IMG/VR virus record: IMGVR_UViG_3300020193_000042
Coordinates: 1 to 43,099 of that record
DNA length: 43,099 bases
Reading direction: 5' to 3' (one strand)
Source: a virus
Shown here: positions 7,401 through 39,058 of the stretch, piece after piece
How positions within the stretch are numbered: the first letter of the stretch is position 1
Layout of the letters: every line of letters starts with the position of its first letter
Made by a program: the position numbers and the translations under genes
The notes under the pieces: model-generated
Told to the model about the DNA's origin: nothing
Database searches by the model: none
What the model saw: the letters and a program-made list of their open reading frames with translations, nothing else

Positions 7401-9142
7401 CCGCGACGATGGTCGGTGCCGAGGCGCTCAAGGACGCGCCCGCGGCGGCGTGGGACTGGCTGATCTCTGGCGTGACTGGCGTGCGCTCGAAGGACGGTCT
7501 CTCGCTGTCCACCCTGCGTGCTTCATACGACGCGGCCGGCGAGGGGTGGGAGGCTGCCAAGAAGATTTGGCGCGAGGGCGAGTCTGTCGCCGACCTGGCG
7601 AAGTGGGATCAGGTGCGCGTGACGTTCAAACACGAGCTCGTCCAGAGACTGCACGACGCTGTGTTTAGGTCGCTCGGCGCGCAGGACAGGTTCTTCCACA
7701 CGGTGGCCGCAGCGCGCTCGCTTCAGGAGCAGGCGAACGTGATTGCGCGGGAGGCGTTCAGGGGTCGCGGCATGAAGGAGTTCTCCGAGTTCGCGCCCGC
7801 ATTCTCGGACTGGCGCGAGATGTCTTCCTGGCTGCAGGCGAACCCGACCGCCGACATGGCGCTCCGCTCGCAGGTCGACGCATCGCTCGCGGTGTTCAGG
7901 AACCAGGACGGGCTGCTGGCTAACGCCGCCAAGAATCTCAGGCAGGCATTCTCGGACCACAGCCCCGAGGCCGAGGCCGTGTTCGATCTGTTCCTGCCGT
8001 TCACGACCACGCCGGCCAACGTCGTGTCGCGAGTGGCTGAGTACTCGCCGCTCGGGTTCCTCGGCGTGAGCCGCGACCTGATCGAGCTGCGGAAGATCGT
8101 GCAGGAGGGCTCCGACGATCTCGCTCCACTGTTCGCGAAGCAGCGGCGGGTCTCCGACCGGCTCGGGCGCGCGACCCTGGGCACGGGCGCTGTCATGCTC
8201 GGCATGTGGCTCGCGCACAAGAAGCTGCTCTCGCCCGGCTACCCACAAACCGCCCGCGAGCGCAACGTCCAGCGCATCACCGACCGCCCGGCCGGCTCGA
8301 TCAGGATCGGCTCCAAGGACTACCCGATCGAGCGGATGGCGCCGTTCGGGCCGCTGCTCGTCATGGGTGCGGAGCTGTACGAGGGCGCGAAGAGCGGTGG
8401 CCGGCTGGCTGGCATCCTGCAGGGTACCAACTACCTGGCTCGCAACGTGACGAACGAGAGCTTCCTCGGCGACGTCGATGTGGCGCTCAACATGCTGTCG
8501 GGCCCGGGCGAGCTGAGTGAGCGCGCGGACGACTTCACGTCCGACGTCGCGTCCTCGTTCGTGCCGAACATCCTGCGCCGGGGGCTGGCCGGCTGGGACC
8601 CGACGATCAGGGAGCCGCGTAGGCCGTCGTTCACGGAGCCCGCCACCCTGGTCGACCGGGCCGCGACCGCGATTCCGGGGCTCAGGCAGGAGATGCCGGC
8701 CCGTGTCGACCCGCTCGGCGAGTATGTCTCCAGGGGGCGCGGTGGCGTGCTCGGTGCGGTCGAGCGCATCTTCAACCCGTTCACGGGCCAGGTCGACCTG
8801 TCGGACACGGACCCGCTCCGCGAGACGATCGAGCAGTACGGCGCCTCGATCCCCTCGGTTGACGAGCGGCTCAGCAAAGCGGGGATCGAGCGCGGCACCC
8901 GCGAGTACGAGATGCGCTCGCGGATGTACGGTCTGCGCGTGCGTGCCAAGCTCGAGCAGGCCCAGCAGGGCGCAGAGTTCGAGTTCACGATCGCAGGCAA
9001 GCGCGTGAAGATCACGTGGGACGAGGCGACGCCTGAGCAGCGCCGCGCCATCCTCGAGCGCGCGGCCGAATCCGCCAAAGACTGGGTGACCGACAAGTTC
9101 AAGTACCTCGAGGATCGGGGCCTCTACCAGAGCCTGCCGTGA
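1487..9142 (+). CDS. giant multidomain (polyvalent) virion-associated protein, putative DNA-ejection protein
   Basis: 2551 aa, 18% of the window. It begins one base after the preceding stop. Residues about 145-200 are hydrophobic. Residues about 590-745 match the widespread phage domain whose hallmark is EIQSDWHQ...VPDAPFK...GYDRI; here the key parts are REMQDDW, VPDRPFKKSSEW and YDRIMFPSG. Around 1560-1670 is a helical phage domain with KIQQMYRALMGDTNAYVHDMWM, perhaps DUF7178-like. Residues about 2165-2310 (FTTTPANVV...YSPLGFL, later APFGPLLVMGAELY) resemble the LPD38 domain of large polyvalent phage proteins. Four Gly/Ala-rich segments, each beginning with an acidic motif such as NEDN, DDEN or DEEN, occur near residues 345-385, 1033-1075, 1766-1800 and 1900-1945. 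Such giants are typically packaged and ejected with the DNA; the exact role is inference. Confidence 0.75.
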   Translation: MPDRATRVRELLGQGLGVDEVVRRVRQEEWETSIAGMPDDEMRAAYESLAGFKQLGRMIKGVPRWFLQGAHGIHETVYGALEGLSRFGQEVRPPHGMGTPAQEEEMRAAYESAKGLGGLAGSDPERWERKRQESAEKVGLPRNAAELGFRIGGMLVPYFALGRFASARLGPQIAAGMALDIPVAMGKREYSLAGIAADMSDPLRDVPTERIAPFEDQREEEFQGWYADRARTLDLDPDPDSQSYDYRRAWEAGAEPDEDGHWPSDFKLRYHPNLIVDGQVTATGEDARGSRFHRAAEYVADDFLLRGLAEGVAGGTITAALLKGIPALRSLRSPAVRAFGGAAAGGVIGGMVNEDNRMAGITGGALLGMGAAMTPELVRAAGGQYATPLPEGARATRGAVVNPVAPRVAGETDTGMRGRWYSRLNRAIEQAPQDQMPASQWMGSLRNTKEGLSGTEVEWTKIEELLAERGDEMLTRGQVMELAQRNPIRLTETVRGRAAVSEGLNMNSPYMTPRVREILMENQGEADDALRMTLENDGAAYRELTAKFPELAENEDWADVVLRDVVGTAEDPQLVAPKYPGITLGARGKEPDANYREILIRLDDQRGPSAKLAKDGDLWGVKDQNTGEWLMRAESYPVASMYVDRLDQEAGRRAGRFTGGHWSEPNVLSSLRVTDEVGEGSEKILRVREMQDDWAQQLRAGRDVPDRPFKKSSEWTALQIRRALQEAADGDYDRIMFPSGDEQVYQYGTQRVRWSTRTDGAFDVEIEPQVGGDTMGHDLGAFADEQGIKRRAAIVRSPDELQRALDASDAEGVDGLGEKIWRRMQVEPEGVSTPRAEGMRKFYDEDIVPNEIAREARRVGAVAERIPSPDAQLIPTEDWGVFGTRTNEPYYARFATRAEAALYTYGHALPPGFVFKQVRHGVNRPITFDIVDEVGEVVGSGKNKSYAVRDAANVDSEFREAYREVYRPLIERGRDPLGDSYDAFGSLDFGQSRPMSEHWSIRITPQARDRILNQGQRIGGAPPAMVRGITGMAAGGATGAAVDDENPARGAAFGALAGMGAGLAPELLRAAGGQYADEIARQGEAGRLVAAVRNPKTGLTALGATHPTILNEAFKRGVDLGEDAYALRGFHETTEPGSFLDRSQAAGRLGSGGQLRAEHLEGFEAEPFRVIETSRPDRPFKIAQEFVSRGRHGVFRAVPPEMDLEFGRHMVRALGSDITNLVNPKIAMVAEEGRGVWAQTVSPNTLLALEGASRDEALRVAALYGIATGQDVEAGYRILDDAINTIDDAGRVLEDPTKRLAVVLTGDVDDIIRRLAAANIGATAERGRVVVGDFGGIGIEALDARLNRALEGADVGEPEVAALDALEVSRAGYGPLARDARTLEGLADVVEAKIGPAYREFAAQRGLDISADLSSLGEISRALRAAPGEQRWWLEAGAARVKSGAATARAVDLVPRLPVDDTVGELASKLRVKRGRVSQREVLQLAGGDEKLAKQVTRFFQARMSETLKDLPLPTADRMREMVAGGRGGASFFEVRPMVEEVLGNDDADMFLRFYAITSSGTDAAEANITLAAKAYAQWKLGLPFTGYRRATIGPMLQQATTGAVFGERKIQQMYRALMGDTNAYVHDMWMSRLFGFPEGVTAGQYRYAEQTVRSLAKELDLSIRDTQAILWSGIKRWWGDVGLGRVTDADDFPALLRSALTEQQPLRPGQKPWADRSIVGRWGSLDDATKENIRRVIAEDEAVYTATYGPRAGNVDLMMLRMLAIAGGGITGAVADEENRLRGFGLGLAAGAGVALIDVGRVRAVGPDARLIPEAVRGLVKMDDAGHLVTPAKGSRQGLELGSWWSDTTGRPLADWNAFTKAEQDQQIVQLARAERDLKLGGPGTVIGDRGGYALPGFVGAVARTGVGAAVGAAVAPEDQELLGATAGGLLFLLGGEVMAGEGSPLLRALSLRKAGLLSAFSTTGLNVASTATMVGAEALKDAPAAAWDWLISGVTGVRSKDGLSLSTLRASYDAAGEGWEAAKKIWREGESVADLAKWDQVRVTFKHELVQRLHDAVFRSLGAQDRFFHTVAAARSLQEQANVIAREAFRGRGMKEFSEFAPAFSDWREMSSWLQANPTADMALRSQVDASLAVFRNQDGLLANAAKNLRQAFSDHSPEAEAVFDLFLPFTTTPANVVSRVAEYSPLGFLGVSRDLIELRKIVQEGSDDLAPLFAKQRRVSDRLGRATLGTGAVMLGMWLAHKKLLSPGYPQTARERNVQRITDRPAGSIRIGSKDYPIERMAPFGPLLVMGAELYEGAKSGGRLAGILQGTNYLARNVTNESFLGDVDVALNMLSGPGELSERADDFTSDVASSFVPNILRRGLAGWDPTIREPRRPSFTEPATLVDRAATAIPGLRQEMPARVDPLGEYVSRGRGGVLGAVERIFNPFTGQVDLSDTDPLRETIEQYGASIPSVDERLSKAGIERGTREYEMRSRMYGLRVRAKLEQAQQGAEFEFTIAGKRVKITWDEATPEQRRAILERAAESAKDWVTDKFKYLEDRGLYQSLP
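6881..6922. repeat. 42-bp perfect inverted copy of a terminase-gene segment
   Basis: The reverse complement of this stretch is identical over 42 nt to positions 25929-25970 in the terminase large-subunit gene. The match extends a few bases either way with mismatches. It sits just after the third Gly/Ala-rich segment of the giant gene and is translated here as IDVGRVRAVGPDAR, while in the terminase it encodes ETRIWSDCANPTDI. See findings. Confidence 0.95.
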
Positions 9143-17023: not shown

Positions 17024-17791
17024 ATGGGCGCCAAGGGCCAGATCGTGCCCGTCGTCGAGGCGGAGGTTGTGCAGCACGCAGGACCGGATGTGGGGCGTCT
17101 GATGGAGATGGCGCTCGGGCAGGGTGAGGGTGGGGTGGCCGCTCTGGAGCGGTTGGTCTCGCTGCAGGAGCGGATGCTGGTGGTGCAGGCGGAGCAGGCG
17201 ATGGACCGGGCGCTCGCGAAGTTCCACGCCGAGTGCCCGCCGATCCCGAAGGACGCCGAGATCGGGCACCTGCAGGTGACCAGGAACGGGCGGAAGGTCG
17301 CGGTGCGCTACACGCGGCTCGAGACGCTCGTGCCGATCATCAGGCCGACGCTCCAGTCGTGCGGCCTGTCGTTCGGCTGGACGCAGCAGGACCGCGAGGG
17401 CGAGGTCGAGATCACGTGCTCGCTCTACCACGTGCTGGGCGCGAAGCGGCATTCCTCGGTGGTCATGCCGGTGCCCGAGAAGGCGGCCGGCCAGTCGCCG
17501 ATGCAGACGAAGAACTCCTCAGTGAGCTACGGGCGGCGCGTGACGCTCACGGGGGTGCTGGGGCTCGTCTCGACCGACGAGGACGTTGACGGGCAGGCTG
17601 GGACGGCCAGCGAGAAGCTGACCGGGGAGGAGGCGGGCCACCTCGCGGTGCTCGCCGACGAGGTGAACCTGTCCGAGGCGGCGCTCACGAAGCTGCTCGC
17701 GCTGCTCGGGGTGTCCGCGTTCGCGGAGCTGGACCGCTCGCTCTACCCGACCGCGCTCCGCATGATCGAAGCGAAGAGGGCCGCCAGATGA
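17024..17791 (+). CDS. erf: ERF family single-strand annealing protein
   Basis: 255 aa, ATG after GGAGGAGG. The ERF core lies near residues 50-185: ALAKFHAECPPIPKDAEIG, RYTRLETLVPIIRPTLQSCGLSFGW and the diagnostic end SPMQTKNSSVSYGRRVTLTGVLGL. ERF proteins bind ssDNA and anneal complementary strands in phage recombination, genome circularisation and repair. The C-terminal region (about 200-255) is helical and may mediate partner binding. The gene overlaps by 4 nt the YqaJ-type exonuclease gene, which would supply the ssDNA: a two-component Red-like system. Confidence 0.9.
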   Translation: MGAKGQIVPVVEAEVVQHAGPDVGRLMEMALGQGEGGVAALERLVSLQERMLVVQAEQAMDRALAKFHAECPPIPKDAEIGHLQVTRNGRKVAVRYTRLETLVPIIRPTLQSCGLSFGWTQQDREGEVEITCSLYHVLGAKRHSSVVMPVPEKAAGQSPMQTKNSSVSYGRRVTLTGVLGLVSTDEDVDGQAGTASEKLTGEEAGHLAVLADEVNLSEAALTKLLALLGVSAFAELDRSLYPTALRMIEAKRAAR

Positions 17792-18720
17792 TCGTCCACA
17801 AGCTGAACGACCTAGGCAACGAGATCAAACAGGGGACCGCAGACTGGTTCCAGCTGCGGCTCGGGAAACCGACAGCGTCCGAGTTCCACCGGGTCATGAC
17901 CAACGAGACGCTCCAGTACTCGAAGGCAGCCTACGAGTACATCGCCGAGCTGTTGGCGGAGAAGCTGCTGGATGCGCCGCTCAAGCCGTTCGATCCCTCC
18001 TCGCGGTGGGATGTCGATGTGCCTGGCCGTGCGTTCACCGACTACACGCAGCGCGGCCAGATCCTCGAGCGCGAGGCGTACTCGTTCTACGAGTTCTTCC
18101 GCGAGGTCGAGCTGGAGCGGGTCGCGTTCGTGGAGCTGGACGACCACTCAGCGGGCGGCAGCCCTGACGCGCTCGTGGGGAAGGATGGGATCGTGGAGAT
18201 CAAGTGCCTCGCCCCGAAGGGTCAGGTCGGCCGTGCGCTCAAGCTGGACCCGATCGCCAAGAAGACGCAGGTGCAGGGCCTGCTCTACATCTGCGAGCGC
18301 GACTGGTGCGACGTGGTCTCCTACAGCGTCCACCCGAAGATCCCGACGCTCGTCGAGCGGCAGTACAGGAACGACCTCTTCATCAAGGCGCTCAGGGACT
18401 GCCTGGAGCAGTTCGGTAGGGACTTCGCGAAGGCCGAGAAGCACCTCGAGATGATCTCCGAGAACGGGGTCTGGGTCGAGGACGGCGGGCTCAGGGCGCA
18501 GCTGCTCGCGTCGCTCGCGCTCGGCTCGAAGCTGCCCAAGGACGCGCTCACGTTCGACGAGGTCGAGGCGCTCGACGCCGACCTGAAGCTGGCGCGTCTG
18601 AACGGCTGCATCGATGAGGCCGACGAACAGCGTATCCGCCAGGATGTGCTGGCCGGCAAGTGGGGCGAGGTTCGCGCGATGTGGGACTGGATGCGAAAGG
18701 TTACGAGGAGGGCAGAGTAA
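17788..18720 (+). CDS. YqaJ-like (lambda exonuclease fold) viral recombinase
   Basis: 310 aa, ATG overlapping the ERF stop. The N-terminal signature GTADWFQLRLGKPTASEFHRVMT (residues 16-38) is typical of YqaJ-like alkaline exonucleases. The PD-(D/E)XK core is visible as GSPD127ALVG...GIVE137IK139C, followed by a helix with a Gln (KKTQVQGLLYICERDW). It would resect dsDNA 5'-3' and hand ssDNA to the ERF annealing protein. The C-terminal 90 residues are an added helical region, longer than in minimal family members. Confidence 0.88.
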   Translation: MIVHKLNDLGNEIKQGTADWFQLRLGKPTASEFHRVMTNETLQYSKAAYEYIAELLAEKLLDAPLKPFDPSSRWDVDVPGRAFTDYTQRGQILEREAYSFYEFFREVELERVAFVELDDHSAGGSPDALVGKDGIVEIKCLAPKGQVGRALKLDPIAKKTQVQGLLYICERDWCDVVSYSVHPKIPTLVERQYRNDLFIKALRDCLEQFGRDFAKAEKHLEMISENGVWVEDGGLRAQLLASLALGSKLPKDALTFDEVEALDADLKLARLNGCIDEADEQRIRQDVLAGKWGEVRAMWDWMRKVTRRAE

Positions 18721-19001: not shown

Positions 19002-19132
19002 GGGCCCAAGCTCAACTTGATGGGTGGCGGCGGCGGGCCCGACCTGCAATCGGGGCCGCGTCGTCGGTGCAGGGGGTCGCCGGAACCGGCCACCTCCCCG
19101 CCGCTCGCCAGTTCTCGTTCCGGGAGGTGAAG

Positions 19133-19285
19133 ATGGCCCAGCAGCCCCGTCGCATCAGCGACATCCTCCGCGACCTGGCGTCGCGCCCAGGGCTCCCCAA
19201 AGACGTCCAGGCCGCCCTCCGCGAGGGCCTCAAGCCCCGCGGCCTACCGCTCGGCTGGGAGAACGTCCCGGTGGTCGAGCCATGA
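19133..19285 (+). CDS. small hypothetical protein, 50 aa
   Basis: MAQQPRRISDILRDLASRPG... The start is set by GGGAGGTGA 3-10 nt upstream. The same frame is open back to an ATG at 18998 that overlaps the previous stop, which would give 95 aa; the extra part has irregular third-position GC. Another frame in the gap contains a 36-aa Gly/Pro-rich reading (19020-19130) that ends at the Shine-Dalgarno. The short form is preferred. Just upstream of the replication genes; function unknown. Confidence 0.55.
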   Translation: MAQQPRRISDILRDLASRPGLPKDVQAALREGLKPRGLPLGWENVPVVEP

Positions 19286-19941
19286 AAGAGGAGCTTGTCC
19301 GCGTGCGGAACTGGAACGTGTGGCAGTCGTACCGTACCGACCGCGATCCGCCCCCCTGGATCAAGGTCCACAGGCGCCTCATCCACGACCCCAACTTCGT
19401 GCGCCTGACAGACGCCCAGAGGGGCCAGTTGGTCTCCATGTGGATTCTGGCCGCCGACCGCGACGGGACAATCCCCGCGGACACCAAAATGCTGCAGAAG
19501 CTGTGCTACATGGACTCCGAGCTTGACCTGGAAGTCTTTGTAGCACATGGCTTTCTGGAGCCGTGGCGCCAAGGTGACGTCACCGTGACGCCAACCCGGC
19601 GTCAACCTGACGCACCAGAGAAGAATAGAAGAGAGAAGAATAGTGGCGGCGCGGCGTCGCGCCGCGTGGCGTACAGCGAGGCATTTGAGGAGGTCTGGAT
19701 AGCTGGCCTACGAAGGGGTGACAAGCCGAAAGCTTTCACCGAATACCAGAAGGCTGTCCCCTCAAAGATCGCGCACTCACCCCTGCTTGCAGCAGTAAGG
19801 GCGCATGTGGCGGCAGCTCGCGAGCCGCAGTACGTTGCCCACCTGCACCGCTGGATTCATGGCGAGCGGTGGCAGGAGCTGTCGTTGAACGGGAGCGGTG
19901 GTCGGCCTGGGTTCCTGCAGCCGTCGAGGAGGCCCCAGTGA
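19282..19941 (+). CDS. putative replication initiator / helicase loader
   Basis: 219 aa, ATG overlapping the previous stop (ATGA). Residues 20-85 (WIKVHRRLIHDPNFVRLTDAQRGQLVSM...DRDGTIPADTKMLQKLCYM) form the N-terminal winged-helix domain seen in phage replisome-organiser proteins. A basic, low-complexity linker follows (EKNRREKNSGG), then a C-terminal helical domain (FEEVWIAGLRRGDKPKAFTEYQKAV...HLHRWIHGERWQEL) like the helicase-interaction domain of phage O/DnaT-type proteins. It directly precedes and overlaps the DnaB-like helicase gene, as lambda O/P-type loaders do. Origin binding is inferred. Confidence 0.75.
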   Translation: MKEELVRVRNWNVWQSYRTDRDPPPWIKVHRRLIHDPNFVRLTDAQRGQLVSMWILAADRDGTIPADTKMLQKLCYMDSELDLEVFVAHGFLEPWRQGDVTVTPTRRQPDAPEKNRREKNSGGAASRRVAYSEAFEEVWIAGLRRGDKPKAFTEYQKAVPSKIAHSPLLAAVRAHVAAAREPQYVAHLHRWIHGERWQELSLNGSGGRPGFLQPSRRPQ

Positions 19942-20930
19942 GAGAGCGCGATCCGCAGGCGAGCGCGGTCGACACGGTCGAGACCACGTTCCTGCACCCG
20001 CACAGGAACATCCTGACGGGCTCCGTGATCGAGAACCACTTCCGGCGTCAGGCGAAGCCGGTCGAGATCGGGCGTGATGTGATCCCCACCCCGTGGGTCT
20101 CGTGGAACCGGGCCTGCATGGACGGCGGAGGGCAGATGGGCCTCTCGCGTGGGTGGCACCTGATCCTTGCGGGCAACACGGGCTCGGGGAAGTCGATCTT
20201 CTCGCTGAACATGGCAGCCGCGGCTGTGCGTGCTGGTGTCTCAGTTGGGTTCATCAACCTCGAGATGTCGTCCGAGCAGTTGCTCTCCAGGCTGCTCGGC
20301 ATCCTAACGGACGAGCCTGTCGCGCATATGATGCGAGGACGGCGGTTCGATCCCACCAGCGCGGAGCGGGTGCAGGAGCGCCTGCAGGAGGTCGTTGGGG
20401 ATGCGAGGCTGATCGTGAACGACGACGAGCTGGCCGAGGAGCCGCTCGAAGCGCTGCACGACATCGTTGCCCTGATCGAGCACTGGGCGAAAGCGCTGGA
20501 GGTCGGCATGGTGATCGTCGACTACATGCAGCTCGCTGGCACAGGGGCGAGCGAAGAGGTCGCGGAGCGGGTGACGCAGATCAGCCGAGCGGTGCGGAAG
20601 GTCGCGAAGGCGCGCAAGATCGTGACGGTCGGCCTGTCGCAGTTCAACCGAGGGACGTCAGGCAACTACCAGGAGTCGCCACGCATCCAGGGCCTCTTCG
20701 GTGCGTCCGGCCTCGAGAACGACGGCCATCAGGTGATGATGATCGACCACTCGCGCTACGAGAAGGTCGAGGACAAGGACGGCTCCGCGATGGGCGCGAG
20801 GACCTGGCTGCTGCTCGGCAAGAATCGTCACGGGCCCACGACGGACATCCCGGTGTGGTTCGACTACCGGACGCTGCGCGTCGAAGAGGCGATGCCTCAC
20901 GAGGAGGACAAATGGCCGGGAGCGAGATGA
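19938..20930 (+). CDS. dnaB: DnaB-like replicative helicase (RecA-type ATPase core)
   Basis: 330 aa, GTG start with GGAGG upstream and a GTGA overlap; the longer reading is not needed. Walker A is G79-NTGSGKS86, Walker B is MVIVDYMQLAG, and GLSQFNRG follows as motif 3, with an Arg/Gly-rich segment after it, as in the DnaB C-terminal domain. The N-terminal DnaB domain is absent and only about 70 residues precede the core. The protein should unwind phage DNA in the 5'-3' direction with the neighbouring initiator as loader. No polymerase or primase gene is visible, so host proteins probably complete the replisome. Confidence 0.88.
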   Translation: MRERDPQASAVDTVETTFLHPHRNILTGSVIENHFRRQAKPVEIGRDVIPTPWVSWNRACMDGGGQMGLSRGWHLILAGNTGSGKSIFSLNMAAAAVRAGVSVGFINLEMSSEQLLSRLLGILTDEPVAHMMRGRRFDPTSAERVQERLQEVVGDARLIVNDDELAEEPLEALHDIVALIEHWAKALEVGMVIVDYMQLAGTGASEEVAERVTQISRAVRKVAKARKIVTVGLSQFNRGTSGNYQESPRIQGLFGASGLENDGHQVMMIDHSRYEKVEDKDGSAMGARTWLLLGKNRHGPTTDIPVWFDYRTLRVEEAMPHEEDKWPGAR

Positions 20931-24786: not shown

Positions 24787-26438
24787 TCTCGCTGATCGAC
24801 GAGTACCTCTCGCCTGAGCGGCTGCAGGAGCACATCATCCGCGCCGAACTCGAGCCCGCGCTCATGCTCAGGAACGAGACCGACATCGACCCGATCGCGC
24901 GCCTACTCGACGAGAAGTTCACCGAACGATTCTGGGAGTACGAGCACTCGCAGATCGGCGACGTGATACCGGGCGAGTTGCACGTGAAACAGCTCGAGGC
25001 GCTGCACGAGGACGTCAGGCATCGCTTCCTGTTCTGGGGCAACCAGGTCGGCAAGACCACGCTCGGTGCGGTCGAGTGCGACCTCGTCGCGCTCAAGAGG
25101 CATCCGACGATCAAGCCGCAGGGCCCGGCTGTGGTGTGGGCGTCGGCGCTGACCTGGGAGCTGTGGGAGCAGATCCTGCTGCCTGAGCTGCTCACCTGGC
25201 TGCCGCAGGACCGCATCATCAGCGCGCCCGAGCCGTTCCGCTCGACGCCCGGCCGGCGCACGATCCTGGTTCGCGCGGACGATGGATCGGTCGCGCGCAT
25301 CGTCGGAAAGAGCGTGCAGCAGGGGCGGCGGTCCTACCAATCCGCGAAGGTCCACTTCGTCTGGCTCGACGAGGAGCATCCCGAGCAGGTGTGGGACGAG
25401 ATCCAGCCGCGCCTGCTCCGGTTCGGTGGGCGCACGCTCACGACCGCGACTCCGCTGCTGGGCCTGACCTGGCTCTTCCACCGCGTCTACGAGAGCTGGC
25501 GCCGAGGGACCGAGCCCGAGTTCTGGTGCTCGCACGCCGGGCTGATGGACAACCCCGCGATCGACGCCGAGATGGTCGCCGCGACCCGCCGCCAGTTCGC
25601 GCACGACCCGTCCCAGCTCGCTGCACGGCTCGATGGCAAGTTCGCGCGGCCGACTGGGCTCGCGCTCTCCGCCTACGACCCGAAGAAGAACCTTGAGTCC
25701 TTCGGGCTCGCGGACGCGGAGGAGGCGAACAGGGCAGGGCGCACGGGCAGGGGCTGGACGCACGTCTGCGGGCTCGATTTCAGCTACTGGCGATTCGCGT
25801 TCCTGCACGGGATGGTCGACCACGCGGGCCGGCTGCACATCGTGAAGGAGTATTTCAGCCAGAAGCAGACGCTCGAAGTCAGGGCCCGGCATGTGCATGA
25901 GCACCTCGCCGCGTGGGGCGCGCCCGAGGAGACGCGCATCTGGTCCGACTGCGCGAACCCGACCGACATCAACGAGCTGAACGCAGCGCTCAAGCGCATC
26001 GGCTCGCCCTACCGCTGCCGTGCGGTCAAGGCTGAATCGAAAGCGCGCAGGACCGGCGTCACGCTGCTCAACGACCTCTTCGCACGCGGCGCACTGCTCA
26101 TCTCGCGCACGGTCGACGACGAGAGCGTCTGGTACCGCGGGCAGGACGCATCGTCCGACGGCCAGCCCGCTGCAGGCTCGAGACTGCTCTACGAGATCGG
26201 GCAGTGGCGCTACGAGAAGCCGACCCAGGACGGCAAGGTGCAGAGCGACGACCCGGTCGACGACACGGCGGATGGCGCGGACTGCTGCGCGGCACTACGC
26301 TACCTGGCGATGAGCCACTTCCGGCCAGCGAAGAAGGCTCCTGTGCCACCGAAGCGGAAGAACCCCAACCTCGACGACGGATACGCGAAAATGCAGAAGG
26401 CGATGCGCGAGCGGATGAAGCGGGAGCAGGTCGCATGA
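24783..26438 (+). CDS. terL: terminase large subunit
   Basis: 551 aa, GTG start overlapping the previous stop (GTGA). The ATPase domain shows Walker A at FWG86NQVGK91T and Walker B at HFVWLD196E197. The RNase H-like nuclease domain begins near residue 328 with GLD332FSYWR, includes WSD389CANPTDI, and ends with an acidic motif near residue 490 (DDPVDDTADGADCC). It drives DNA packaging through the portal encoded downstream. The segment 25929-25970, encoding ETRIWSDCANPTDI, recurs inverted in the giant gene. Confidence 0.93.
   Translation: MISLIDEYLSPERLQEHIIRAELEPALMLRNETDIDPIARLLDEKFTERFWEYEHSQIGDVIPGELHVKQLEALHEDVRHRFLFWGNQVGKTTLGAVECDLVALKRHPTIKPQGPAVVWASALTWELWEQILLPELLTWLPQDRIISAPEPFRSTPGRRTILVRADDGSVARIVGKSVQQGRRSYQSAKVHFVWLDEEHPEQVWDEIQPRLLRFGGRTLTTATPLLGLTWLFHRVYESWRRGTEPEFWCSHAGLMDNPAIDAEMVAATRRQFAHDPSQLAARLDGKFARPTGLALSAYDPKKNLESFGLADAEEANRAGRTGRGWTHVCGLDFSYWRFAFLHGMVDHAGRLHIVKEYFSQKQTLEVRARHVHEHLAAWGAPEETRIWSDCANPTDINELNAALKRIGSPYRCRAVKAESKARRTGVTLLNDLFARGALLISRTVDDESVWYRGQDASSDGQPAAGSRLLYEIGQWRYEKPTQDGKVQSDDPVDDTADGADCCAALRYLAMSHFRPAKKAPVPPKRKNPNLDDGYAKMQKAMRERMKREQVA
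25929..25970. repeat. 42-bp segment shared in inverted form with the giant gene
   Basis: Identical over 42 nt to the reverse complement of 6881-6922. Here it encodes part of the conserved nuclease-domain motif, so this copy is the likely source. Confidence 0.95.
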
Positions 26439-27052: not shown

Positions 27053-27174
27053 CGCTCGGCGACGTCCTGCTCCGCCTGCTCGGCGTGTACCTGGGCCTCC
27101 TGGCGCTGGGCGGCATCTGGTTCTCCGTCACCTCGATCTACATCGACCTGCGGGCGATGAGGCGTAAGGCATGA
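27049..27174 (+). CDS. tiny membrane protein, 41 aa
   Basis: GTG start overlapping the previous stop. MTLGDVLLRLLGVYLGLLAL then GGIWFSVTSIY is one hydrophobic helix, with a short basic tail (DLRAMRRKA). Stop overlaps the next ATG. Not recognised. Confidence 0.6.
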   Translation: MTLGDVLLRLLGVYLGLLALGGIWFSVTSIYIDLRAMRRKA

Positions 27175-27521
27175 TTTGGCCCTGGGTCTCACGCCTCGCG
27201 TATGACGCGGTCGTGTCCGAGCGCGACATCCTGCGGGCGCAGAACGTCTCGCTGACCGACTCGCTCACGCGCATCCGCCGGGCGGAGACCGGGCTCCGTG
27301 AGGTGCCCGCCCCTCCGAAGCGGCTCGAGCTGCAGAAGCCCGTGACCGTGCCGGCGCACATCGAGCGACTCTACCGAGGGCGGCTCCAGTCTCGTGCGAT
27401 GGAGGATATGTACGAGGCGCAGGCTCGGGACATGCACGCGGCGGGTGCCCCGTGGAACGAGGTCGAGCGGGCGCTGATTAAGGCGCTGGGTGAGCCTCAG
27501 TATCTGGACGGGCACGCATGA
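27171..27521 (+). CDS. hypothetical protein, 116 aa
   Basis: ATG overlapping the previous stop. A helical N-terminus (RLAYDAVVSERDILRAQNVSLTDSL) precedes a Pro-rich linker and a helical C-terminus (RLQSRAMEDMYEAQARDMHAAGAPWNEVERALIKAL). Stop overlaps the next ATG. Unknown; part of the block between terminase and portal. Confidence 0.6.
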   Translation: MIWPWVSRLAYDAVVSERDILRAQNVSLTDSLTRIRRAETGLREVPAPPKRLELQKPVTVPAHIERLYRGRLQSRAMEDMYEAQARDMHAAGAPWNEVERALIKALGEPQYLDGHA

Positions 27522-27873
27522 CCACGGGCCGCCGCCGCTTCCTGCAGGCGATGTTCGGGGCTGCGTGTGGGGTCGCGCTCGGCGACGAGATCCTCGAGAC
27601 GCTCGACCGGCTGGCGCCGCGGCCGGTGGTCGTGCCGGGCGCGGATCTCTCGGGGTACACCCCAGTAGTGATGACGTCGGAGTTGAGTGGGCTACTCCTC
27701 TTGGCGTCCGGTGGCGTCATCAACTTCAATAGCGGCGACGTGACGATCACGCACGCGGCGAATATGTCGGCCAGATCGTGCCGACGGTGAGATGGGACTC
27801 CATCACGGCGCAGATGTTCACGACCCACGTCTACGACGGCGCGCGGGTGTTCACGTTCTCAGTGACCCCATGA
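27518..27873 (+). pseudogene. Tat-signal-like small protein gene, interrupted by a tail-fibre-like segment and frameshift
   Basis: The first frame (27518-27790) starts MTTGRRRFLQAMFGAACGVALG, with a twin-Arg motif (RRRFLQ) and hydrophobic stretch like a Tat signal. It continues to MTSEL and then a segment (LLASGGVINFNSGDVTITHA) that resembles the tail-fibre protein at 38249, and stops at 27790. In the -1 frame, from about 27763, a well-formed end follows (YVGQIVPTVRWDSITAQMF, THVYDGARVFTFSVTP). Its stop overlaps the next ATG by 4 nt, matching local gene spacing. So the original gene probably ended in that frame and was disrupted. No function recognised for the intact form. Confidence 0.6.
27700..27760 (+). 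repeat. diverged copy of a tail-fibre gene segment
   Basis: 61 nt matching 38830-38890 at 53 positions (about 87%) with no gaps. The translated peptide LASGGVINFN(S/N)G(D/N)(V/A)TITH is shared. It ends right where the frameshift of the host gene occurs. Confidence 0.85.
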
Positions 27874-28070
27874 TCCCCCTCACCCCCCGCCAGCGCACGA
27901 TCGTCGAGATGGTCGGCGAGGGCCGCACCTACGTGCAGATCGCGAAGCGCCTGAAGATCAGCAAGCACACGGTCAGGACGCACGCGCGGCTGGTCTACGC
28001 TCGCCTCGATACGGAGCTTCCGCTCCGCTCCGCGCTCGTCGAGCTGTACTGGACCAAGCTGAAGGGCTAG
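27870..28070 (+). CDS. small LuxR/GerE-type helix-turn-helix protein
   Basis: 66 aa, ATG overlapping the stop of the -1 frame of the preceding gene. LTPRQRTIVEMVGEGRTYVQ then IAKRLKISKHTVRTHARLVYARLD is the full GerE helix-turn-helix (scaffold helix, then recognition helix SKHTVRTH). There is no receiver or ligand domain. Likely a DNA-binding transcription regulator; target unknown, possibly the late genes just downstream. Confidence 0.8.
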   Translation: MIPLTPRQRTIVEMVGEGRTYVQIAKRLKISKHTVRTHARLVYARLDTELPLRSALVELYWTKLKG

Positions 28071-28071
28071 G

Positions 28072-28158
28072 ATGGCCACAGTCCTGGACTTGTTCTGCGG
28101 AGCGGGTGGCTGTTCGATGGGCTACCACCGGGCCCGCTCACCCCTCGCCCTCGTGTAG
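28072..28158 (+). pseudogene. N-terminal stub of a C5-cytosine DNA methyltransferase
   Basis: 28 residues, MATVLDLFCGAGGCSMGYHR..., with the diagnostic motif I (DLFCGAGG) of C5 DNA methyltransferases, followed after GYHRA by unrelated sequence and a TAG. A functional enzyme needs about 300 more residues (PC motif, ENV, target recognition). It follows the LuxR-type gene with GAAGGG upstream. A matching C-terminal stub lies at 29072-29170. Confidence 0.7.
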
Positions 28159-28167
28159 GGGGGAACG

Positions 28168-28887
28168 GTGGGACGAGTCCAGAAACGTGAGAGCCCATGG
28201 CTCTTTCAGTGGCGGAAGGTGCTGCTCTCAGAAGCGGGCCCGACGTTCGCACGACGGCACGTGCTCAACGTGCTCGCCGGATACGGCGATGAGCACGGCA
28301 ACGAGATCTTCCCGTCGACTGACACGCTGGCCCGCGCCACGGGCATGTCACGACGCCGCGTGGAGGAGCATCTGCGCAAGGCCGAGGCCGACGGCTGGAT
28401 CGAGCGTACTGTGGCCGGCTCGGGGCGGGGGTGGCGACGCATGACCTACACGCTGCACGTCCCGAAAGGTGCGGACGGAGCGTCCGGACCAAGACTCGCT
28501 GAGGTGCGGACGGAGCGTCCCGACCTCAATTGTCGGCGTGCGGACGATGGAGGTACTGAGGTGCGGACGGAGCGTCCCATTACCTCTTTAGAGACCTCTC
28601 CAAGTATTGCTCGCAATCGCGCAGCGACCGAGACGAGACTTCCTCGAAAGCAGTGCAAGCAAGAGCAGCCGGGCTGGACCACCCGCGCTGGCGATCGGTG
28701 GAGAGCTGCGTTCGGGGGCGTCCCCAACTACGGCAAGATCGGCCGTCACCTGAAGCCGCTTGTCGACGAGCACCGCAGCGTAGTCGATCTCACTCATGGT
28801 CGTTGCTCCCAACGGCTTAGGCCGTTAACTTTGGATGCAGAACGGGGCCATCGGGGGGCGGTTTCCCGCCCCCCTCGCCCCTTCTAA
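28168..28887 (+). CDS. helix-turn-helix protein with internal iteron-like repeats, putative replication-type protein
   Basis: 239 aa, GTG start after GGGGGGAA. Residues about 20-95 (FARRHVLNVLAGYGDEHGNEIFPSTDTLARATGMSRRRVEEHLRKAEADGWIERT) form an HTH_36-type winged helix, often the N-terminus of phage replication initiators. The middle encodes three 19-bp DNA repeats. The segment WRAAFGGVPNYGKIGRHLKPLVDEH looks like the usual conserved C-terminal domain, but after it the sequence becomes Arg/Pro-rich and the DNA holds two hairpins, so the 3' end may be frameshifted or fused. Second initiator-like gene in the window besides 19282. Confidence 0.65.
   Translation: MGRVQKRESPWLFQWRKVLLSEAGPTFARRHVLNVLAGYGDEHGNEIFPSTDTLARATGMSRRRVEEHLRKAEADGWIERTVAGSGRGWRRMTYTLHVPKGADGASGPRLAEVRTERPDLNCRRADDGGTEVRTERPITSLETSPSIARNRAATETRLPRKQCKQEQPGWTTRAGDRWRAAFGGVPNYGKIGRHLKPLVDEHRSVVDLTHGRCSQRLRPLTLDAERGHRGAVSRPPRPF
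28467..28577 (+). repeat. three 19-bp iteron-like direct repeats; candidate origin
   Basis: AGGTGCGGACGGAGCGTCC occurs exactly at 28467-28485, 28502-28520 and 28559-28577, with a partial copy (GTGCGGACG) near 28538. Copy 1 lies in a different reading frame from copies 2 and 3, so the DNA rather than the peptide is conserved. A comparatively AT-rich stretch (about 28577-28620) follows, as in iteron origins placed inside initiator genes such as lambda O. Confidence 0.7.
28853..28874 (+). other. hairpin at the 3' end of the helix-turn-helix gene
   Basis: GGGGGGCGG and CCGCCCCCC pair perfectly around TTTC. Another short hairpin (AACGGC/GCCGTT) lies at 28811-28826. Both are within the annotated reading frame, which suggests that the last 25 or so codons are not the gene's original end. 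No T-run follows directly. Confidence 0.55.
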
Positions 28888-28922
28888 GGGCGACTAGTCT
28901 TTCATGGTCGGCCCCTGATTAG

Positions 28923-28980
28923 GCGGCGGCTCCGGGAGTCCTCTCCAGGGAACTCATCCCAGAGCCGCCGCTCTGTTTTT
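28923..28980 (+). terminator. rightward intrinsic terminator
   Basis: GCGGCGGCTC (28923-28932) pairs with GAGCCGCCGC (28962-28971) around a 29-nt loop, followed by TCTGTTTTT. This fits a rho-independent terminator at the end of the terminase/accessory block. A second small hairpin (CCGGGA/TCCCGG) follows at 28981-28998. Confidence 0.7.
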
Positions 28981-29071
28981 CCGGGAACCGTCTCCCGGAT
29001 GACGCCAATGGACCCGCGCCGATGGCACCGAGCACCGCGCGGTACGGAGCCTCGCGGAAGGTGCCGCCGCT

Positions 29072-29170
29072 ATGGGCATCGACTGGATGGACTGGGACGG
29101 GCTCCGTGAGTCAGTCCCACCCGCGTACACCGAGTACATCGGCCGCGCTATCCTCGGGCGCCACGGCTAG
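29072..29170 (+). pseudogene. C-terminal stub of a C5-cytosine DNA methyltransferase
   Basis: 32 residues, MGIDWMDWDGLRESV followed by PPAYTEYIG and a short tail. MGIDWM...IPPAYTE(Y/H)IG is the typical end of phage C5 methyltransferases. The same frame is open upstream only to a stop at 29000. The N-terminal stub is about 0.9 kb upstream (28072-28158) in the same orientation, so one gene appears to have been gutted and its middle replaced. The rest of 28888-29220 holds the terminator and no other gene; no clear promoter is seen before the portal gene. Confidence 0.65.
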
Positions 29171-29220
29171 CCACTTAGGGCGATTACGCGCGCTCGCGCG
29201 GCCCGCGCATCTTTCGGCGC

Positions 29221-31473
29221 GTGGCGGACATACCCTTTCCTGAGACTCCGCCCGGCGTACCAAGCCCGGCGTCCGACCAGACCCAAGGCGGCGAGGTCGA
29301 GCTTCAGCGTAAGGCAAAGCGAACCCTCGACTTCCACACGAAAGGGCTCGACTCGCTCCGCCTCCGCATCCTGACCGCAGAGAAGTACATGCTGCACGTC
29401 GATGGCGAAGGGCTCTCCCAGTGGTACGACATCATCGACGGGCAGCGGCTCTCGATGATGCCATCGCTCAACGGGTTCAGTCCGACGCAGGACAACCAGA
29501 TGAGCCCGATTCTGGACAACTTCATCGCGCACCTGACGAGCCAGCCCTATCGGTTCGTGGTCGACGCGAAGCGCGACAAGAAGAGCCGCCAGTCCGCGAT
29601 CATCGATCAGGCGCTGATCAACGCGCAGGCGAAGGTGCAGAAGTGGAACTCGCTGATGGCGCAGGCGAAGGCGTTCGCCGCGGTGTTCGGCTCCTGCCCG
29701 ATCCACTCGATGGTCCGCGAGCACAACAACGACTACGAGGCGGTCGCGACCAGGGGCGCGCCGATCAGCATCGACTCGTTCGTCGGCAACCCGTTCGACC
29801 ACGTGAAGAACGGCGGCGCCGTGCGTGGGAGTACGCACCGCAGGACGTGGGGCCGCTCACTGCCCGCCGACATGGTGCGCCAGATATTCGGGCGGCCCGA
29901 CCTACGCGGATCGACGCGACTGCCTTCGGCCGCATCGTTCCAGCGCGCGGTCAGGAAGTGGACCCGGCTCGGGCACCGGAAGCACGGCAACGCGGAGATG
30001 GTCGCGTCGGACGGGCACGAGGAGCTGATCGCGCTGATCTACGACGAGGTGCTGGCCGGCGTCGACCCGATGTATCCCGAGAACTCGCTCTGCATCATCG
30101 CGATCCAGGACTCGGCGACCACGAACCCTGAGGACGCGCGGAGCGCGCAGGGTCGGGCGGTCCACCTCTGGTCGGGCCCGCTACCTGGCGGCTTGTTCTC
30201 AGCGATCGACACCTACTCGCATCACAGGTTCGACGACCCATACGGCAAGCCGTACCTGGCCGATGTGGACGAGGACCAGATCGAGATCAACCAGCTGCAG
30301 ACGATCTTCAAGGAGTACCAGCGCCGCGCGTCGCGCCCGGAGCTGGGCGGATCTGGTGGGGTCGAGGTCGATACGGTCGGCCCGCAAGGCGACACCTACT
30401 TCCAGCTTGAGCAGATCGTCGGCGGCGCGCAGACCGAGCTGCAGTGGCTCCAGTTCCCGAACGCGCACATCCCGCCGCTGCAGGCGCAGCTGCAGATGCG
30501 CTACGACTCGATGTACCGGAAGGCCGGCTGGCAGGCCGCCTCGAGGGGCGAGACGCAGGGGAGCGGCAAGGCGATCATCGCGCTGCAGGTCGCAGACGAC
30601 TCGATCATGGGCCCGATCTCAGGGCGCACGGCCGAAGACCTCGAGGACATGGCCGTCCAGAACTGGCGGCTGCTCAAGACGTTCATGACGGCCGATCAGG
30701 TGATCGAGGCAGCGGGCTCGGAGCTGGCGCATCTCGCAAGCTCCTACGTGAACAACACGATGATGAGCGACACGCCTCCGCGCTTCCAACTGGTGTCCAA
30801 GTTCGGCACGAACACCGAGGCGATCGCGCAGCAGCTGCTCAACATGATCGGCGTCACGGACACGGCAGGTGAGCCGATCCTGACCGCTCGCCAGTTCAAG
30901 AAGCAGTGGCCGGACCAGTCGACCTACCACGAGATCGAGGACCCTCGCGATTTCCGCGAGTCGCGCCCGCTCAAGGTCAACCAGATGATCCGCGACGCGG
31001 CGGACCAGAAGACGGCCGAGCTGATGCAGCAGTTCATGGACCCGATGACGGGCCAGTCCAAGTGGCAGCCGTCGATGGGCGATCCGTTCACTCAGCAGCT
31101 CGGGCTCGTCGTCGAGATGGAGGTCGCCCAGCAGGAAGACGTGCTGATGGACGACGACATGGCGAAGAACATCGAGACGCTCTCGATCATCACGCAGGAC
31201 CCGACCGAGCATCCGGTCGCTCGTCGTGCAGCGATCCAGCGGCAGATGCGCTACATGATGTGGCTCGCCGGCCAGCAGCAGCAGCAGCAGCAGCAGAGCC
31301 AGGCGGTCCAGCAGGAGGCCGCAGGTCAGGCCGCGCGGCAGGGCGTGAAGGATCAGGCCGCAGGTAAGCGGCCGACCGCGCAGGAGGCGTTCAACCCAGC
31401 CGCCGAGGGCGGCACCACGTCGGCCCAAGGCATGGTTGAGGCCGACAGACAATTCTCGAGGAAGACAGCATGA
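29221..31473 (+). CDS. portal protein
   Basis: 750 aa, the size of large P22-type podovirus portals. GTG start without an obvious Shine-Dalgarno; there is no nearer alternative. Features: FSPTQDNQMSPILDNFIAHL near residue 85, EYQRRASRPELGG near 370, a long helical segment near 420-450 (PPLQAQLQMRYDSMYRKAGWQAA), and a Gln-rich coiled-coil C-terminus with eight consecutive Gln encoded by CAG repeats near 31274-31299. It follows the terminase block and precedes scaffold and capsid genes, the normal head-gene order. The portal forms the dodecameric DNA channel. The call combines size, order and motif look. Confidence 0.8.
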   Translation: MADIPFPETPPGVPSPASDQTQGGEVELQRKAKRTLDFHTKGLDSLRLRILTAEKYMLHVDGEGLSQWYDIIDGQRLSMMPSLNGFSPTQDNQMSPILDNFIAHLTSQPYRFVVDAKRDKKSRQSAIIDQALINAQAKVQKWNSLMAQAKAFAAVFGSCPIHSMVREHNNDYEAVATRGAPISIDSFVGNPFDHVKNGGAVRGSTHRRTWGRSLPADMVRQIFGRPDLRGSTRLPSAASFQRAVRKWTRLGHRKHGNAEMVASDGHEELIALIYDEVLAGVDPMYPENSLCIIAIQDSATTNPEDARSAQGRAVHLWSGPLPGGLFSAIDTYSHHRFDDPYGKPYLADVDEDQIEINQLQTIFKEYQRRASRPELGGSGGVEVDTVGPQGDTYFQLEQIVGGAQTELQWLQFPNAHIPPLQAQLQMRYDSMYRKAGWQAASRGETQGSGKAIIALQVADDSIMGPISGRTAEDLEDMAVQNWRLLKTFMTADQVIEAAGSELAHLASSYVNNTMMSDTPPRFQLVSKFGTNTEAIAQQLLNMIGVTDTAGEPILTARQFKKQWPDQSTYHEIEDPRDFRESRPLKVNQMIRDAADQKTAELMQQFMDPMTGQSKWQPSMGDPFTQQLGLVVEMEVAQQEDVLMDDDMAKNIETLSIITQDPTEHPVARRAAIQRQMRYMMWLAGQQQQQQQQSQAVQQEAAGQAARQGVKDQAAGKRPTAQEAFNPAAEGGTTSAQGMVEADRQFSRKTA

Positions 31474-38252: not shown

Positions 38253-39058
38253 GTTTCGCGTTCGGCGTCAAGGCGCTCCAGCCGATCGCCGGCCAGCCGC
38301 ACATCCTTGGGTTCGCTGCTGCCGAGACGACCTCGGACCAGACGATCGTCGAGGTCTGGAACGGCCCGTCGTCTGCCGCTCGCGTGCTGCGGATCAACAA
38401 GGACGGGCAGATCCAGGCGGCGAACGGCGCGGTAGGCACGCCGGCCTACTCATTCGAGTCGGACAAAGACTCGGGGATGTACCGGATCGGCGCGAACGAG
38501 ATCGGGCTCGCGGTGGGTGGGGCTGCGCGAGTGACGGTCAGTGCGTCGCTCGTGAGCATCGTTGGCTCGTCCGCCGACGAGCAGCTCCGCATCAACCACG
38601 CCTCGGCCACAGGCAATCCGTTCATCGGGTTCTACCAGAACGGGACGCGGCGTGCGTACATCCAGTCTGGTGATTCAGGTGACTACCTCGGCCTCCTCGC
38701 TGAGTACGGTCCCGTGTACCTGGGGTCGGGTAATGATTGGCGCGTGGCCGTCAGCACTACAGCATTTTACCCCTTCGCCGACGACGGCATCACCCTTGGC
38801 ACAGGCACGTACAAGTTCTCCGATCTGTTCTTGGCGTCCGGCGGCGTCATCAACTTCAACAACGGCAATGCTACGATCACGCACTCGGCGGGCAACTTGA
38901 AGTTTAGCAGCGACGTTGAATTAGATGGCGCGCTCAATCACGACGGGACAACCGTAGGCTTCTATGGTACGGCACCCATCGCGCAACAGGCTGGCGTACC
39001 CGTAACTGCCGCCGGCGTCCACGCGGCGTGTGTCGCCCTCGGGCTGTTTACAGCATGA
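38249..39058 (+). CDS. tail fibre / receptor-binding protein
   Basis: 269 aa, GTG overlapping the previous stop. Typical tail-fibre repeats are visible: VGTPAYSFESDKDSGMYRIGANEIGLAVGG, FIGFYQNGTRRAYIQSG, DDGITLGTGTYKFSDLFLASGGVINFN, and the end HDGTTVGFYGTAPIAQQAGVP with a short helical cap (AAGVHAACVALGLF), as in many podovirus fibre proteins. A short segment (38830-38890) recurs diverged in the 27518 gene. Receptor specificity cannot be predicted. Confidence 0.75.
   Translation: MSFAFGVKALQPIAGQPHILGFAAAETTSDQTIVEVWNGPSSAARVLRINKDGQIQAANGAVGTPAYSFESDKDSGMYRIGANEIGLAVGGAARVTVSASLVSIVGSSADEQLRINHASATGNPFIGFYQNGTRRAYIQSGDSGDYLGLLAEYGPVYLGSGNDWRVAVSTTAFYPFADDGITLGTGTYKFSDLFLASGGVINFNNGNATITHSAGNLKFSSDVELDGALNHDGTTVGFYGTAPIAQQAGVPVTAAGVHAACVALGLFTA
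38830..38890 (+). repeat. tail-fibre segment shared with 27700-27760
   Basis: 61 nt matching the copy in the small Tat-like gene at about 87%. This copy sits in frame in the fibre repeat region and is the likely original. Confidence 0.85.

Follow-up and report, generated by a model that had tools for sequence, protein, structure and literature searches.

Did the DNA between a LuxR-type gene and the portal-like gene of this virus once hold a complete methyltransferase gene, and how did both ends of such a gene come to flank a replication-type segment? The window analyzed here is the whole 43,099-nucleotide IMG/VR record IMGVR_UViG_3300020193_000042, whose ends (positions 1 and 43099) match neighboring sites in a related genome, G001 (L026 9035-10312 and 10572-11287), which suggests a circularly permuted genome that is probably nearly complete. 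In an initial annotation, 28072-29170 had been described as a C5 DNA methyltransferase whose middle was replaced by an incoming module, recording the loss of a DNA-modification defence. The features of the region and its surroundings are as follows.

27518..27870, + strand: adjoining composite stretch, with an ORF start, a tail-repeat-like piece (27691-27766) and a capsid-start-like piece in another frame (27763-27849)
27870..28070, + strand: LuxR/sigma-r4-type helix-turn-helix gene, the left neighbor (GerE, 1.6e-10)
28072..28134, + strand: N-terminal methyltransferase stub, 21 residues, motif I DLFCGAGG
28135..28158, + strand: out-of-family tail of the N-stub ORF, RSPLALV and stop codon TAG
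28168..28887, + strand: O-like/HTH_36 replication initiator ORF, GTG start, 239 aa
28467..28490, + strand: iteron copy 1, AGGTGCGGACGGAGCGTCCGGACC, 24 nt
28502..28525, + strand: iteron copy 2, 96% identical
28559..28582, + strand: iteron copy 3, 79% identical
28923..28980, + strand: hairpin region rich in G+C, with a terminator-like stem and T-run at its end (28960-28980)
29003..29170, + strand: C-terminal methyltransferase stub, 55 residues, family-typical end and stop codon kept
29221..31473, + strand: portal-like gene, the right neighbor (function from its position and from the naming in the initial annotation)

Two Ends of One Methyltransferase Family

The ORF at 28072-28158, translated as MATVLDLFCGAGGCSMGYHRARSPLALV and closed by a stop codon, matches PHROG 363 ("DNA methyltransferase") with an E value of 3.9e-6 and carries motif I near its N-terminus, in agreement with its earlier description as a methyltransferase start that soon stops; against Pfam PF00145 it scores 14.1 bits, under the 22-bit cut-off. 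Its homology ends at residue 21, that is at position 28134, both among the phage matches listed by tblastn and against L027-L030, and the closest sequences are L027 and L028 (94% over 18 aa). The ATG of this stub begins 1 base after the stop codon of the LuxR-type gene.

The typical end of such enzymes had likewise been correctly placed downstream in the same orientation, and its homology extends further upstream than had been seen, to about 29003 (RQWTRADGTEHRAVRSLAEGAAAMGIDWMDWDGLRESVPPAYTEYIG...). The segment AMGIDWM...PPAYTEYIG is present and matches PHROG 363 with an E value of 0.0044. This stub is 62% identical over 50-52 aa to the ends of the intact L029 and L030 (E about 1e-18), and in the best 20 of 54 records its DNA is about 79-82% identical over about 76 bases to Mycobacterium phage methyltransferase genes and to BearBQ gp81. 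Its natural family end falls 50 bases before the portal start.

The two stubs align, in order, with residues 6-23 and 176-226 of the 234-residue L030. As a control, 200 dinucleotide-preserving shuffles of 28072-29170 were compared by blastp with 28 intact relatives, and none of them scored more than 30.4 bits; the real stubs reached 44.7 (N) and 72.8 bits (C), above all of the shuffles, which confirms that these are methyltransferase ends and not chance matches, and nothing in the rest of 28072-29170 rose above the shuffle maximum. Both ends belong to the same C5-type methyltransferase family (PHROG 363) and are colinear.

About 150 residues of L030, including the catalytic motifs, are absent from both stubs. 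No PCQ/PCT/PCK, ENV/KNV or QRR/QRK string occurs in the six frames of 28072-29170, and a profile search gave no PF00145 match anywhere in the window. Nor do the stubs share an ORF, the N-terminal one stopping at 28158 and the C-terminal one lying in another frame from 29003. Both could still be translated, as had been noted, yet neither could be an enzyme. The gap between the matched parts measures 456 bp in L030 (matches 5140-5193 and 5650-5802) versus 868 bp in the window, and these 868 bp differ in content from the middle of L030. An intron or intein splitting the gene was rejected, because about 150 residues are missing from both stubs and no Rfam intron match was obtained in 27400-29400 even at E up to 1. 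Rfam matches to Acido-1, which covers two iterons, and to microRNAs were below gathering scores and were taken as chance. Separately, a gene of the same methyltransferase family in Mycolicibacterium canariasense (L090 3016-4181) has its halves separated by roughly 0.5 kb.

An Initiator-Like Segment between the Stubs

The initiator-like gene, the iteron-like repeats and the terminator that had been reported between the stubs are all present, the repeats as three 24-nt direct copies and the terminator as a terminator-like hairpin. The initiator ORF matches PHROG 270 (E 3.8e-14) and HTH_36 (E 4.1e-9), with weaker matches to PHROG 391 and 1032; a winged-HTH N-terminal domain is present (HTH_36, PHROG 270), and the match to PHROG 270 extends as far as residue 156. 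At third codon positions, the HTH part and 28661-28776 both have a GC of about 0.8, against a low value of about 0.55 in the linker that holds the iterons and 0.56 between 28777 and the stop codon. As coding-like composition ends at about 28776, the true 3' end of the initiator gene was probably lost near there; the homologues found are too distant for the C-terminal (helicase-loading) part to be aligned. Near 28797, a reverse-strand reading (MSEIDYAAV) may be the start of another gene fragment.

The iterons, putative binding sites, sit inside the initiator ORF, and no other 13-mer family in the window has three copies within a span of 600 bases. Three terminator-like sites occur in 27400-29400, versus 0.8 expected.

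The matches obtained for the initiator are all distant. In viral_contigs neither a protein search nor a degenerate pattern for the C-terminal motif (0 matches) found any, and in genome_contigs 117 stretches matched a pattern with no relative among them. Distant matches were found in 23 phage records (about 33% identity among the matches listed), in 4 plasmids and in 7 of 396 genomes of one phylum, some of which (L164 and L166 among them) seem to belong to other HTH families. None of 8 further genomes matched, and a match was found in 1 of 12 related virus contigs (L169, 31%).

The phage also encodes replication and recombination genes elsewhere in the window:

17024..18720, + strand: Erf-like annealing protein and exonuclease (PHROG 155, 1.4e-19; PHROG 149, 5.4e-24)
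19024-19941, + strand: own replication initiator ORF (PHROG 270, 1e-12)
19869-20930, + strand: DnaB-type helicase beside the own initiator (PHROG 19, 1.5e-40)

The possibility that the insert duplicates the phage's own initiator at 19024 was rejected, as the two have no protein similarity and no shared DNA. The Erf-like annealase and the exonuclease are candidate recombination machinery.

The Slot in Related Contigs

Relatives were collected via the capsid-type protein (18 loci) and via portal alignment (32 loci), and the interval compared in the latter runs from the gene matching 27171-27521 to the portal gene. This interval is fully visible in 30 of the 32 contigs, which are not 30 independent cases, L034-L036 for example being near-duplicates in viral_contigs; in L042 and L059 the 27171-27521 gene was unmatched and the contig starts about 0.5 kb before the portal match. 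The portal-like gene is conserved in L001-L018 and L032-L063; it gave no Pfam or PHROG match in profile searches, and the portal-type protein as a single query found nothing in viral_contigs or phages. Homologues of the LuxR-type gene lie just 5' of the portal gene in L001-L003, L017, L032-L036, L039 and L057, and in the nearest relatives, L001 and L002, hardly any sequence separates the LuxR-type gene from the portal gene after it. The flanking genes of the window follow the order of the relatives on both sides of the slot.

Neither the methyltransferase (queried with L020, L028-L030 and both stubs) nor the initiator was found at any of the 32 loci at E up to 0.01; the 1.15 kb present here is thus extra material in a variable slot. 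The intact methyltransferase sought between the LuxR-type gene and the portal gene occurred in 0 of the 30 fully visible intervals, so the gene is not ancestral to this slot. The structure comes from a single contig, and the fully visible slots of its relatives are without a methyltransferase; this does not show that a modification defence was lost, and that part of the initial annotation is not borne out. PF00145 was found in the whole contigs of 1 of 11 relatives (G001); transfer of the methyltransferase from G001 was rejected, as its enzyme is of a different type, beginning LSLFPGIGLLDMAF.

Other cargo is found in this slot. In L063, a Cpn10 (GroES-type) gene with tRNA-Pro and tRNA-Met (2590-3600) precedes the portal gene, and in L034 a LuxR/sigma-type HTH is fused to a MUG113/T5orf172 domain, which we take to be GIY-YIG-like, just 5' of the portal gene (3396-3899), a geometry repeated in L035, L036 and L003.

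Methyltransferase Relics in Cultured Gordonia Phages

A series of cultured phages provides a parallel. Among 41 Gordonia records found, the region was examined in some. Kamaru and Malisha carry an intact methyltransferase (PHROG 363 at 5e-48 in Kamaru), and alignment of Phistory, LitninMcQueen, Horus, Apricot, Ecliptus and Periwinkle shows the first three codons of the Kamaru gene joined directly to its C-terminal part, the resulting stub being annotated as a separate 38-aa gene. The DNA of this stub is identical in five of the six, and LitninMcQueen differs at one base, a non-synonymous change; given this near-identity, the six stubs look like one inherited event, which indicates shared descent and not selection. 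In BearBQ, to which Kamaru and Malisha are related, gp81 (37 aa) consists of just the C-terminal end of the enzyme, with unrelated sequence upstream, and in TwoPeat and Tote the methyltransferase gene is broken into two ORFs. The C-terminal relics, annotated as hypothetical genes of 37-38 aa, are positioned as follows.

L147: 1504-1617
L152: 1525-1641
L153: 1525-1641
L157: 1456-1572
L159: 1203-1319
L160: 1178-1294
L161: 1107-1223

These genes bear on the possibility, raised in the initial annotation against its own reading, that the two peptides are separate conserved genes. Half of it holds: the C-terminal peptide alone is a 37-38 aa gene in seven Gordonia phages, but it is there a relic of deletion. 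The relics in isolates indicate that the gutting of a methyltransferase with its ends left behind is a real outcome, and not one confined to metagenome contigs. No account of a gutted phage methyltransferase was recognized among the titles and abstract openings of the papers listed in searches of open-licence PMC text.

Proposed Origin of the Two Stubs

We favor, with a probability of roughly 0.6, the explanation that phage recombination gutted a methyltransferase acquired next to the portal gene; the structure has the look of a gene-shuffling relic, such as cultured phages also show, and not of a new system. From the arrangement we infer an order of events, a recombinase, a donor and a lack of function. 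A short C5-type methyltransferase, of the kind found in many actinobacterial phages, would have been acquired in the slot that separates the portal gene from the LuxR-type gene. The central part of this methyltransferase gene, about 456 bp in L030, would then have been lost and replaced by about 868 bp from a replication region, carrying the front of an O-like initiator with internal iterons and intergenic hairpins, most likely through error-prone annealing recombination by the phage, which encodes an Erf-like annealase and an exonuclease, and the two ends would remain as non-functional leftovers. A whole gene that formerly occupied the slot would account for the N stub starting 1 base after the LuxR-type stop codon and for the C stub keeping its natural end 50 bases before the portal start. 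The earlier proposal of a middle replaced by an incoming module stands insofar as the ends are colinear with foreign, replication-type sequence between them, and fails insofar as the methyltransferase is not ancestral to the slot. Against a gutted gene stand the lack of any relative with an intact methyltransferase in this slot, so that its former presence in the window's slot is inferred, the differing closest enzymes (L027/L028 for N, L029/L030 for C), with no single known enzyme nearest to both stubs, the unrelated fragments that also collect in the adjoining stretch, and the restriction of the structure to one assembled contig.

That adjoining stretch, 27518-27870, is composite. Within it, the piece at 27691-27766 is similar to a repeat of the tail region that has a paralogue at 38821-38890 (73-78% identity, E 1e-7 to 9e-6), while 27763-27840 resembles the start of a capsid-type protein (E 2e-5 within the window; E 4e-7 against L062 in a four-sequence search). 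These similarities are short, at 19-31 residues; neither stretch has a Pfam match, the first ORF alone has a weak PHROG match, and the whole ends in an ATGA overlap with the LuxR-type gene. Because of this composite, a patchwork origin stays a serious rival, even if we regard it as unlikely: no complete methyltransferase would ever have stood here, and the slot would have gathered short pieces of several phage genes, namely a tail repeat, a capsid start, a methyltransferase start, an initiator and a methyltransferase end, possibly from more than one methyltransferase, as the different nearest relatives of the two stubs would allow. Random pieces, however, are unlikely to be exactly both termini of one family, ordered, on one strand and with start and stop codons kept. 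Somewhat less probable again is an assembly chimera, with metagenome reads of different phages joined at or near 27766, 28134, 28780 or 29000. The abrupt breaks in homology at several places would fit such joints, and the window is a single IMG/VR record for which no second contig with the insert was seen in the records searched; yet composition is even across the region, the flanking gene order matches that of relatives on both sides of the slot, and comparable relics are found in Gordonia phages that have been isolated and cultured. Elsewhere in the window, 6867-6988 and 25878-25984, which lie in the long ORF at 1487-9142 and in the terminase gene, resemble each other reciprocally over short stretches of opposite strands (about 55-85% over 18-38 aa), a similarity that composition may explain.

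A retained function is very improbable. The stubs or the shortened initiator might have been kept by selection, for example as a small peptide, or, just as improbably, as an iteron-binding protein that tunes replication although its helicase-loading part is missing. In favor of this, the two stub ORFs and the HTH part of the initiator are open with coding-like composition, the only three-copy iteron family of the window lies here, and the C stub is annotated as a gene in the seven Gordonia phages. Set against this, the near-identity of the Gordonia sister stubs reflects shared descent and not selection, and the window has its own initiator and helicase. Equally far-fetched is the idea that the slot by the portal gene took up an origin-like cassette, in which a shortened initiator would bind the iteron array without being able to load a helicase. 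Such a cassette would act as a decoy or regulator of replication, either that of this phage or that of a rival, and its insertion would have cost the phage the methyltransferase.

As the relic of a gutted gene, the locus is a clear scar of within-gene exchange with both termini still readable. Taken with the Gordonia phages, whose genes are intact, internally deleted or reduced to a C-terminal stub, it provides a set for studying how phages lose modification genes and why relics of 37-38 aa come to be annotated as genes. It also cautions against reading a short conserved peptide such as MGIDWM...PPAYTEYIG as evidence of a working methyltransferase.

Comparison with Known Systems

In Lambda O-type initiators, iterons lie inside the gene. 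The initiator in the window is alike in its winged-HTH N-terminal part and in its mid-ORF iterons (PHROG 391 and 270 matches), and differs in that its C-terminal part seems cut off and a helicase gene is not adjacent.

De Paepe et al. (2014; PMC3945230) report that phage mosaics are promoted by Rad52-like recombinases. The window would resemble the mosaicism described there in its Erf-like annealase and exonuclease and in exchange borders that lie inside genes, with the difference that recombination is here read from sequence alone.

A close likeness is to the Gordonia phages. In the six sisters, a methyltransferase of the same family has lost its middle, with the first three codons and the C-terminal end kept, and the relic occupies the same gene position as the intact gene of Kamaru and Malisha; in BearBQ, as in the window, a C-terminal stub is joined to unrelated sequence. 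The window locus lies in the packaging/portal region, unlike that of the sisters, and whereas the sisters have undergone a plain deletion of roughly 0.4 kb, the middle of the gene in the window has given way to a larger segment that is foreign and bears an initiator.
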